Below are positions 19,801-25,800 of a stretch of DNA of 64,000 nucleotides, in pieces. A program made the position numbers and the translations under genes. Position 1 is the stretch's first letter, and each line of letters opens with the position of its first letter. A model generated the notes under the pieces. That model was not told the origin of the DNA, ran no database searches, and was given only the letters and a program-made list of their open reading frames with translations. Origin of the DNA: Zoroaster sp. YZ-2022 (Eukaryota; Echinodermata; Asteroidea; Forcipulatida; Zoroasteridae). The stretch spans positions 27,672,728 to 27,736,727 of the forward strand of contig CM055823.1 in assembly GCA_029582265.1 (NCBI GenBank), written 5' to 3'.

Positions 19801-22800
19801 CAGGTGTGTACAATTGAATTGAAGCAGTGTGATAATTTCTCAGGCCCGGATTATTTGTTTATTTTATTAAATTTTTATTGACACAGGATAACTTTAATAA
19901 TAATAATAATAATAATAATGGAGGCATTTTTAAAGTGCTCTTACACGAGGTATCACAGCGCTGTACATTATTACCCCTACTCATCAGGCGCATAAATCAT
20001 TCCTGAAACCATCTCAGCTCCTTGGGAATATACAGCTCAATTGCTGCCATTTCAGCGCATATGGGCTAATCAAACACAACAACCAACTCTGCCCTCACAG
20101 GTACCCATTTACTCCTGGGTGGAGAGAAGCAATTATGGTAAAGTGTCTTGCTCGAGGACACAAGCACCACGGTTGCGGTTGGGATTCGAACCCACATTCT
20201 GACACAAATTAGAACACAAATCCAATACACTAAACTGTTCGGTCATGGCACTCCCAGTTTGACAATTTCCCAGTCTGACAAGCCCAACATTAAAATTTTA
20301 TGAATTTTGCTCCGAGATGTGCGAGTGTATTGAAAGTTGAAATTATCTGACTATCTGAAAATTTACCCAGCAACCAGGCTGGCAGCAAGAAATCGAGATT
20401 GGAAGTTTAGATCGGTCCATTAGCCAATTGACCTACCCCCTGGCAGGTGGGCAGGTGTTAAAGGGACATTATAACATCAATATGTACTTCTACTAGTTTG
20501 TTAATTTACTCTCTTTGAATCAAGATATACAATAACAAAACAAATCTGTGAAAGTTTTTCACGAGAAAATAGTGAAAATTTGTGTGTGCCATAATCATCA
20601 TAATTTACACTATGTTAAAAATCAGTCAATTGGTTTATTTTTGAATTACCAATTTTTATACCTTATCTTTAAGTGCATTAATCTGTCTTGTTTTTTGTTA
20701 CCAGGGCTTAACTCTTATGTTGTTGTTTTTATTTACCATTCAGGGCTTAACTCTTATGTTGTTGTTTATATTTACCATTCAGGGCTTAACTCTTATGTTG
20801 TTGTTTTTATTTACCATTCAGGGCTTAACTCTTATGTTGTTGTTTTTATTTACCATTCAGGGCTTAACTCTTATGTTGTTGTTTTTATTTACCATTCAGG
20901 GCTTAACTCTTATGTTGTTGTTTTTATTTACCATTCAGGGCTTAACTCTTATGTTGTTGTTTTTATTTACCATTCAGGGCTTAACTCTTATGTTGTTGTT
21001 TTTATTTACCATTCAGGGCTTAACTCTTATGTTGTTGTTTTTATTTACCATTCAGGGCTTAACTCTTGTGTTGTTGTTTTTATTTACCATTCAGGGCTTA
21101 ACTCTTATGTTGTTGTTTTTATTTACCATTCAGGGCTTAACTCTTATGTTGTTGTTTTTATTTACCATTCAGGGCTTAACTCTTATGTTGTTGTTTTTAT
21201 TTACCATTCAGGGCTTAACTCTTGTGTTGTTGTTTTTATTTACCATTCAGGGCTTAACTCTTATGTTGTTGTTTTTATTTACCATTCAGGGCTTAACTCT
21301 TATGTTGTTGTTTTTTTTTACCATTCAGGGCTTAACTCTTATGTTGTTGTTTTTATTTACCATTCAGGGCTTAACTCTTATGTTGTTGTTTATATTTACC
21401 ATTCAGGGCTTAACCCTTATGTTGTTGTTTTTATTTACCATTCAGGGCTTAACTCTTATGTTGTTTTTATTTACCATTCAGGGCTTAACCCTTATGTTGT
21501 TGTTTTTATTTACCATTCAGGGCTTAACTCTTATGTTGTTGTTTTATTTACCATTCAGGGCTTAACTCTTATGTTGTTGTTTTATTTACCATTCAGGGCT
21601 TAACTCTTATGTTGTTGTTTTTATTTACCATTCAGGGCTTAACTCTTATGTTGTTGTTTTATTTACCATTCAGGGCTTAACTCTTATGTTGTTGTTTTAT
21701 TTACCATTCAGGGCTTAACTCTTATGTTGTTGTTTTTATTTACCATTCAGGGCTTAACTCTTATGTTGTTGTTTTATTTACCATTCAGGGCTTAACTCTT
21801 ATGTTGTTGTTTTATTTACCATTCAGGGCTTAACTCTTATGTTGTTGTTTTATTTACCATTCAGGGCTTAACTCTTATGTTGTTGTTTTTATTTACCATT
21901 CAGGGCTTAACTCTTATGTTGTTGTTTTATTTACCATTCAGGGCTTAACTCTTGTGTTGTTGTTTTATTTACCATTCAGGGCTTAACTCTTATGTTGTTG
22001 TTTTATTTACCATTCAGGGCTTAACTCTTATGTTGTTTTTATTTACCATTCAGGGCTTAACTCTTGTGTTGTTGTTTTTATTTACCATTCAGGGCTTAAC
22101 TCTTATGTTGTTGTTTTTATTTACCATTCAGGGCTTAACTCTTATGTTGTTGTTTTTATTTACCATTCAGGGCTTAACTCTTGTGTTGTTGTTTTTATTT
22201 ACCATTCAGGGCTTAACTCTTATGTTGTTGTTTTATTTACCATTCAGGGCTTAACTCTTATGTTGTTGTTGTTGTTTTTATTTACCATTCAGGGCTTAAC
22301 TCTTATGTTGTTGTTTTTATTTACCATTCAGGGCTTAACTCTTATGTTGTTGTTTTATTTACCATTCAGGGCTTAACTCTTATGTTGTTGTTTTATTTAC
22401 CATTCAGGGCTTAACTCTTATGTTGTTGTTTATATTTACCATTCAGGGCTTAACTCTTATGTTGTTGTTTTTATTTACCATTCAGGGCTTAACTCTTATG
22501 TTGTTGTTTTTATTTACCATTCAGGGCTTAACTCTTATGTTGTTGTTTTTATTTACCATTCAGGGCTTAACTCTTATGTTGTTGTTTTTATTTACCATTC
22601 AGGGCTTAACTCTTATGTTGTTTTTATTTACCATTCAGGGCTTAACTCTTGTGTTGTTGTTTTTATTTACCATTCAGGGCTTAACTCTTGTGTTGTTGTT
22701 TTTATTTACCATTCAGGGCTTAACTCTTGTGTTGTTGTTTTTATTTACCATTCAGGGCTTAACTCTTACGTTGTTGTTTTTATTTACCATTCAGGGCTTA

Positions 22801-25800
22801 ACTCTTACGTTGTTGTTTTTATTTACCATTCAGGGCTTAACTCTTATGTTGTTGTTTTTATTTACCATTCAGGGCTTAACCCTTACCTTGTTGTTTTTAT
22901 TTACCATTCAGGGCTTAATTCTTGTGTTGTTGTTTTTATTTACCATTCAGGGCTTAACTCTTACCTTGTTGTTTTTATTTACCATTCAGGGCTTAATTCT
23001 TGTGTTGTTGTTTTTATTTACCATTCAGGGCTTAACTCTTACCTTGTTGTTTTTATTTACCATTCAGGGCTTAATTCTTGTGTTGTTGTTTTTATTTACC
23101 ATTCAGGGCTTAACTCTTACCTTGTTGTTTTTATTTACCATTCAGGGCTTAACTCCTCTTATGTTTGCCTGCTCTAGAGGGGACGAGGCCATGGCACAGA
23201 TTCTCATCAGAAATGGTGCCGACATTGACCAAGCTGTAAGTCTTTGCTGTGGGTCTGTTTGTAGGTCTGCATTTACCTGTTCTTGTATCTGATCGTCAAT
23301 AGTTGTAGTCGAGTTCTTTGTCATGAGTACTAGAAAAATTTACTTGAGTACGAGTTTGATGACCACAACTCTGCTGACCGATGTCTATCTGCATGGCAAT
23401 CACAGAAACTTACTTAATAATGCCCCTTGAGCGATTTCGCCCACCCTTGACAGCATAGAAAACTTGACCATGCGACAACCTTTTGTTTGATGGAGGAGTA
23501 TCATTATTGGTTCAGTTTACGGTTTGCATTATTAAACACAATGTGGTTTGATTCTCAACTATGGCAGAGTGAGATTGTGAACCTTTTATTTCCTTGTTAA
23601 CGTAATTCTTGTATCTTTTCAGGTTCCGAGTCAGCACACCAGTTATCCGTGTGTTCATCCTGCCATTAGGCATTGGACAGCTCTCTCCTTTGCAGTAATA
23701 AATGGAAACGTGTCGGTGGTCCAGGTAAGTTGAAGTCAAAAGAAGTTTTGATCTGTCAATTGCCGTCTTATTGGCAGTGTGTTTGGTATTCTCAAAAAGC
23801 ATTGATGTTCTCTGTTTTACAGGAAATTAATAACTGGTGTAAAGTTGATGATGGTGAAAGCATCCCTTGAAATCCTTCAGTTTGAGGCTTTTCAGAAATG
23901 TCAAATTTTATTCTCCAAATGCCCACTTGAATTTAGGTGACGAAAGATACCAAAACTCCACAGTTGAATGAAGTGGTAAGAAGTGCTAAACTTTGTGATA
24001 TGGATTTTCAATTAAATTGTTTGTTCTTTCAGCTTTTGTTGGATGCTGGTGCTAGCGTCCGTGGGTCAGTTGACGTCAACGGTGATAACTACACAGAGAC
24101 ACCATTACAGCTTGCATCTTCTGCAGGTAACAGTTGTGTACGAATTTGCTACTTTCTAAGAAATTTTGAGCATTCTGATAGTTAAATCTGAATTTGGGGC
24201 AGATGGATTCGTTCTTGTGTAAAGTACCTTCCCTTTAAAGGGGCATTATTGTCATGATCAGAGCAGACTTTCGACAGGGCATGGTAATATGATCTTATCA
24301 CGCCCTGTCACTGAGTTCATCTAAAACTAGGATACCGATTCCATGCCCTGTCGAAAGTCTGCTGTGATCGTGATGATACTGTCCCTTTAAGTCTGCTGAA
24401 ACCCGATCACGACCTCAAACTTTTGCAGTGTTTCTGTAAAAAAAAATGCACATACAGCAAACATATGCGTAAGATAGCCGCTCCATCACAGTCCTCGATC
24501 TTAACTGCGGCCACTGTGGCCATGGCTGTGGTGCCCCTCCGAGTTGGCCGTAATGCCCCCTTTGGTTGGCCTTGAAATTTTGAGGCATCCAAGGCCAAAG
24601 TGGCCGTGCCCTCTCAATCCTTAAGGTCGAGGCTTGCCATCACAAAAGTTTTTTTTCTGTTAGTAAATGGTTGTCCTGAAAGCAAGTGATTATAATTTAG
24701 AAATTGTTAAATGTCATAATTTTTTGGCCTGCAGGTAATTTTGAATTGGTGTCGCCGCTGTTATCGAAAGGAGGAGACCCTTATCTCACCACAGTACACA
24801 GGAACGGTATCCCCACCAAAGGTCATGATAACTCCTTCGCCTTAGCTGCTGCCAATGGCCACAGGTAAGAGATGAGGTCACAGCTCTGGTCAGCCAATAA
24901 CAGCAGAGAATCGATGATTTTTAGATCAATTTGTAAAAGCTTTTGACCATTGGTTATTATTTTGTTACTAATTCTATGACGACTGTGATAATTTTTCAGT
25001 TTTCAATTTAGGAAAGAGTGCAATTTTTCAAATGAGATTTTTCACAAAATAATTGACTGAAACATTTTATTATGAAACAGTCTTTTAGTGTGATTATTTG
25101 ACCAGCATAGGATTTATGATCCTGGGTCATTTAGTTGTTTATTTCATTACTGTTTAAATATGCTTCAATAAATTATTTGGTGAACTGACTTATTTCAAGT
25201 ACTTGACTTTCTTTAAAAAACAATTTAAAAAATAAATAAATAATTAAATGCGGTGGAATCTTCTCTTTGTCAGAAACATCTTGAGAAAACTTCTTGAGCA
25301 GCCGCGGAGTGTGAAGTCAACAGACATATTGTCCCTGGAGGAGATCTTAGCGGAAGGGAACGACCCCGAACCTCTTTTGCCTAAAATGCCCAAGCTTAGA
25401 AGAACAGGCAGTAAAAGCAAGATAACACTGGCCCTACAGGTATGTGAATGGGGTGTCACGGTCGAGCGGTTTAGTGCATCGGATTTGTGTTCTGATGGCT
25501 GAGTCGTCAGAATGTGGGTTCGAATCCCAACCACGACCGTGGTGCCTATGTCCTCGAGCAAGACACTTTACCATAATTGCTTCTCTCCACCCAGGGGTAA
25601 ATGGGTACCTGTGAGGGCAGAATTGGTTGTTGTGTTTGATTAGCCCTATATGCACCAAAATGGCAGCAGTTGAGCTGTATACTCCCCAGGGAGCTGAGAT
25701 GGTTTCAGGAATGATTTATTTATTTATATTTATTTATTACATTTATTTACCCAGGGTATGCCCAAACAGTTAAAAACTGGTTTCCATTGGGGCCCTGCGT

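Follow-up and report, generated by a model that had tools for sequence, protein, structure and literature searches.

A stretch of 64,000 nucleotides from the genome of the sea star Zoroaster sp. YZ-2022 (contig CM055823.1, positions 27,672,728 to 27,736,727; called the window below and cited in its own numbering) carries a tandem array of 63 units at 20705–23145, directly before an exon of an ABTB2/ABTB3-like ankyrin-BTB gene. Each unit combines a copy of the start of that exon with a T-rich tract and CAG. The array is best read as a 'mirage' minisatellite, i.e., a tandem duplication across the intron–exon boundary of this gene, amplified to 63 units, and we put the probability of this reading at about 0.8.

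Structure of the Array and Its Host Gene

Splitting the 2441 bp of the array (plus strand) at CAGGGCTTAA gave 63 units arranged head to tail, of which 46 measure 39 bp, 13 measure 38 bp, three 36 bp, and one 45 bp. The repeat-finding program TRF, run on the window, delimited 20702–23155 with a period of 39, 63.3 copies, and 96% matches; thus the satellite of approximately 63 copies of 39 bp, described at these coordinates in an earlier note on this DNA, was confirmed. The array makes up 73% of the intron (19804–23145). Only 13 distinct unit sequences were present, the commonest accounting for 24 of the 63 units. Column counts showed that the unit head GGCTTAA and the unit tail TTTACCATTCAG were invariant in 63/63 units, variable positions occurring only within columns 8–27 of the 39-bp unit. 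The motif CTTAAC, which the same note had ascribed to every unit, was found in 60 of the 63 and was replaced by CTTAAT in units 58, 60, and 62.

The unit types were not scattered along the array. There were 20 pairs of identical neighbours, a number reached in 57 of 20,000 permutations, the 38-bp units were restricted to units 22–44, and two types alternated in units 58–63. Such clustering is the pattern left by local duplication. Selection on the acceptor half, considered in view of 19 adjoining columns without variation, was rejected because under random placement the chance of such a run was too high (6.8% for seven variable columns, or 1.5% for nine, including two indel sites).

The unit number is taken here from the assembly, and a case is reported in which a draft genome had misassembled a lancelet mirage (PMC3087553). 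A real but short mirage of a few units might accordingly have been inflated by mis-assembly. We consider this very improbable: the contig that carries the window is 41.7 Mb long (in a genome of 1.0 Gb and 616 contigs), the 13 unit types stand in ordered blocks, and the flanks on either side are unique.

The host gene is the main gene of the window and looks intact. Its best named relatives were found in Asterias rubens (75% identity), Acanthaster planci (79%), and Patiria miniata (80%), these values referring to 89–96% of a partial query. The tblastn searches with the proteins of these three sea stars gave 15 exon matches from 7649 to 37689, and the array occupies the intron before the fifth. 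This exon, 23146–23235 (plus strand, 30 codons), was spanned by the alignments of all three proteins, was recognized by Pfam as an ankyrin repeat (E = 5.4e-8), and encodes a peptide, including GLSPLMFAC, conserved in all three species. Hence, the claim that the last unit is the real acceptor of an ABTB2 exon was borne out. The exon is followed by the donor gtaagt at 23236–23241. According to tblastn and splice context, the upstream exon lies at 19638–19803 (donor CAG/gtgtgt) and the next one at 23623–23724, both on the plus strand; the numbers 4, 5, and 6 given to these three exons count exons inside the window only. The fifth exon with its following intron had one full match in the assembly when the best 40 of 91 candidates were scored, and a second haplotype was not found among them.

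Origin of the Unit from the Exon Edge

The unit heads are a copy of the first 20 nt of exon 23146–23235 minus 3 nt. The exon start GGCTTAACTCCTCTTATGTT aligned with the unit GGCTTAACTC---TTATGTT at 17 of 17 bases outside a single 3-nt gap; in other words, the unit head GGCTTAACTCTTATGTT equals GGCTTAACTCCTCTTATGTT less one CTC of CTCCTC, as had been proposed. When the alignment was forced to begin at exon base 1, the score was 13.5, a value that no 25-mer reached among 1500 drawn at random from the window (maximum 8.75). The remaining 14 exon starts, three or four of them placed only approximately, scored no higher than 6.0 in the same anchored alignment. An unanchored shuffle test was weaker, with 1 of 5000 shuffles as good. 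Since T-rich stretches elsewhere in the window reached higher unanchored scores with two joined units (up to 31 against 27), it is the anchoring that carries the argument.

These unanchored scores would suit an unrelated T-rich satellite which had expanded up to the exon and matched its edge by chance, and so would the commonness of arrays in this genome (10 of period at least 20 and at least three copies in 104,752 sampled bases). We find this explanation hardly credible, given the anchored result. Moreover, the unit was found only here and in one diverged array elsewhere, in a search that skips common words, and among the arrays of period 10 or more listed near the gene, only the acceptor array overlaps an exon.

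The exon is taken as the source and the array as the copy because the exon encodes an ankyrin repeat conserved in three sea stars. Together with the exon-edge match, this supports the earlier view that the acceptor and its exon edge were duplicated and amplified in tandem. The founder would have consisted of the pyrimidine tract, CAG, and about 20 nt of the exon, with the loss of one CTC of CTCCTC, and slippage or unequal exchange would have amplified it to 63 near-identical units. At the 5' edge of the array, the sequence TTGTTTTTTGTTACCAG (20688–20704, plus strand) looks like a diverged acceptor half, with a TTAAT branch-site candidate whose A is at 20681, and is probably descended from the original acceptor. 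A difference between edge and inner units is clear at the exon edge (3 nt). The homology at the 5' edge is modest, 47 of 5000 shuffles matching two joined units as well as did the 30 nt that precede unit 1.

Choice of the Acceptor

Every AG choice was translated through exons 4–7. The last AG (23144–23145), at the end of unit 63 (23107–23145, plus strand), yields the conserved protein. With the first AG (20704), 2441 nt would be inserted and translation would run into a premature stop, so that this AG can no longer make the protein. On the question whether the first or the last AG is chosen, the reading frame thus argues for the last. Of the 63 upstream AGs (decoys), the 19 belonging to units 45–63 (22408–23145, plus strand) kept the frame open through exons 4–7 and would add 13-residue hydrophobic repeats, and the AGs of units 1–44 led to stops; with 13 of 63 units being 38 bp long, the frame is not kept throughout the array.

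From −20 to +3, 45 of the 63 decoys were identical to the true site, and 40 remained so when the comparison was extended to +10, but from −25 to +10 there were none. The earlier statement that dozens of near-identical modules precede the true acceptor is supported by the ties in the shorter intervals. Because 40 of 63 decoys tie with the true site over −20 to +10, the choice cannot come from a score of the core acceptor; it must rest on where the site lies, how far it is from the donor, the sequence of the exon, or bases still further upstream.

The zone free of AG before the true AG is 37 nt long and corresponds to unit 63. It contains four candidates for the branch-site consensus yUnAy: TTAAC (−33), CTTAC (−27), TTTAT (−13), and TTTAC (−9). 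The consensus favours TTAAC, with its A at 23113, which was chosen on grounds of both distance and fit. This preferred candidate is part of the sequence copied from the opening codons of the exon. The spliceosome would take the last AG. With the nearest upstream AG 39 nt away, scanning would confine the branch point largely to unit 63, and this unit would win because it lies close to the exon body and to the gtaagt donor (exon definition), not because its acceptor is stronger. Splicing that leaked to the nearest decoys would stay in frame; use of units 1–44 would bring premature stops.

The open frame of the 19 decoys and the ties with the true site could also mean that the array serves as a set of working alternative acceptors, units 45–63 inserting their hydrophobic repeats into the ankyrin region, perhaps in a regulated way. 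This appears unlikely to us. The 38-bp units break the frame in mid-array and are simply clustered there, and an open frame is no sign of selection, since the unit is open in two of its three frames in any case; coding selection on the array was accordingly rejected. The Asterias, Acanthaster, and Patiria proteins have no insert at this place, and no known protein bearing the repeated peptide was found at E ≤ 0.01 among 8000 candidates scored. In lancelets, mirages reportedly make no aberrant mRNA (PMC3902484).

RNA folding as a mask for the decoys was ruled out, as a 234-nt piece of the array folded worse than 200 of 200 dinucleotide shuffles (z = +3.57). In local folds with 6-nt windows, the exposure of the true AG was 0.002 against a decoy mean of 0.016; when the last units were folded together with the exon, the values were 0.84, 0.81, and 0.32 at the true CAG and 0.02–0.34 at three decoys.

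Several points weigh against the mirage reading as set out here. The founder junction and the copy at the 5' edge are only modestly supported by the alignments. From −25 upstream, every decoy differs from the true site, so that the variant bases of unit 63 could themselves help this unit. The two local folds predict opposite exposures of the true AG, and neither was used. A broader proposal, which we offer tentatively and with low confidence, is that the locus represents a natural 64-way competition of near-identical acceptors, each with its own branch-site candidate. The exon would then have become the source of its own branch point, the acceptor used originally, at the far end, would have been abandoned, and an isoform ladder would be possible.

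Recurrence in the Genome

A genome search with 246 bases of the array returned 15 matches, 13 of them the array itself and two from one place on contig C1, at 67–69% identity. At the sensitivity of this search, which skips common words, the acceptor unit has one locus only, and no dispersed family with several unlinked loci was found. An array of this unit remote from exons would have refuted the proposal of the earlier note; both matches outside the array belong to one diverged array, which also stands before an exon. This array of 13 copies of 35 bp (C1:42972978–42973441, minus strand; 1979–2442 of locus L009) lies in the intron directly before an exon of a MOZ/SAS (MYST) acetyltransferase (Pfam MOZ/SAS, E = 7.3e-11). 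Apart from an 8-nt gap, its edge unit matched the exon start (GAGAAGA + CTGAATT) at 14 of 14 bases. Of 1500 random 25-mers, two scored at least as high as the best of the three unit variants tried, and the consensus unit scored only 2.0. The array, found only because its core resembles that of the acceptor array, may be a second, older, and degenerate mirage; it was not counted because its units lack CAG. Three further matches of the 35-bp array were simple T-rich or AT-rich repeats.

A survey anchored on kinases covered 50 loci, namely, 20 of 60 regions and the 30 best matches with 131 of 1157 candidates scored. An open frame extended over the match in 44 of them (16/20 and 28/30). Among the arrays within 150 bp of the frame at these 44 loci, none was seen to copy an exon edge, a result from which no genome-wide rate follows; five loci (L032, L048, L060, L068, and L074) were judged by sequence, and L027, L028, L053, and L072 by unit and copy number. 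Introns of two related kinase genes on contig C16, at L032 (2528–2696) and L048, hold 22-bp T-rich arrays (TTTTATTTTC[CG]AGAGCAGTTAT), that of L032 within an inverted-repeat element. In viral contigs, no sequence identical to a 31-mer of the acceptor unit was found.

Other Repeats and Genes of the Window

Two arrays at 1395–2307 and 3950–4544 have a common 81-bp unit containing, by eye, the 26 nt TTACTCTCTTTGAATCAAGATATACA, which are seen once more at about 20506–20531, in the same intron as the acceptor array and about 170 bp upstream of it. A stretch with GGGATTCGAACCC at about 20050–20250 resembles by eye what we take to be a tRNA-derived short interspersed nuclear element on the minus strand; ARAGORN found no tRNA in 19900–20700. 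Pieces of the intron following the fifth exon (23296–23376 and 23486–23579) recur at many other sites of the genome, and several of these sites stand in tandem rows (124 listed matches in total); from these rows it is concluded that the genome readily turns dispersed sequence into arrays. On the minus strand, reverse transcriptase fragments (RVT_1, E = 3.2e-27 and 1e-5) lie at 26746–27713 within an intron of the ABTB2-like gene, a DDE_3 endonuclease domain (E = 3.2e-10), i.e., a transposase remnant, at 52873–53250, and ferritin-domain open frames (E = 1.1e-21 and 2.1e-21), 13 kb apart, at 45314–45814 and 58373–58852.

Comparison with Known Systems

The satellite had been called unusual for having a functional acceptor as its monomer, yet it is not without precedent. 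As described in PMC3087553 and PMC3902484, lancelet genes contain tandem arrays of intron–exon boundaries termed mirages, which seem to leave regular splicing intact and were proposed as a route to new introns (PMC3087553). They occur in the globin genes BflGb6 and BflGb9 as well as in the genes of troponin C and PGBD5 (PMC3902484), and the Adh3 mirage is cited with units of 10–72 bp (PMC3087553). In the sea star, as in lancelets, the tandem duplication spans the intron–exon boundary of the host gene, and the array adjoins the authentic boundary which was copied. Edge units differ from inner ones in lancelets; in the sea star, such a difference is clear at the exon edge and may hold at the 5' edge. 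The closest parallel in composition is BflGb6, where the 3' end of the intron and the 5' part of the exon are likewise repeated, but in six or three units of 150–160 bp (PMC3087553) against 63 near-identical units of about 39 bp here. Length variation and splicing were tested for the lancelet mirages, whereas the sea star array is known from genomic sequence.

Human internal tandem repeats in segmental duplications also comprise minisatellite units of about 30 bp at exon–intron boundaries, with about four copies on average, and are often retained in exons or form new introns (PMC2812944); in the sea star array, unlike in these repeats, the position of the boundary in the protein is unchanged. 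With NAGNAG and other close tandem acceptors, the array has in common the competition of AGs at one acceptor. The AGs of these close tandem acceptors, however, are reportedly 3–9 nt apart and have a common branch point, whereas those of the sea star are 36–45 nt apart, each with its own tract and branch-site candidate.

No echinoderm or sea star mirage was found in the open-access literature searched, most subscription papers lying outside its scope. Apparently new, then, are the echinoderm host, the 63 copies, and a unit holding a branch-site candidate, a pyrimidine tract, and an AG. As far as the open-access literature shows, the array extends mirages beyond lancelets, as an extreme case of a known kind. 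If the broader, low-confidence proposal is true, the copied first codons of the exon now serve as the branch site for the same exon, and the last 19 decoys, which are in frame, together with the unit number, may give rise to a low-level isoform ladder with steps of 36 or 39 nt, differing between individuals. The many near-identical copies would provide a natural test of splice-site choice, in which the ties with the true acceptor would make a readout of acceptor use unusually informative.

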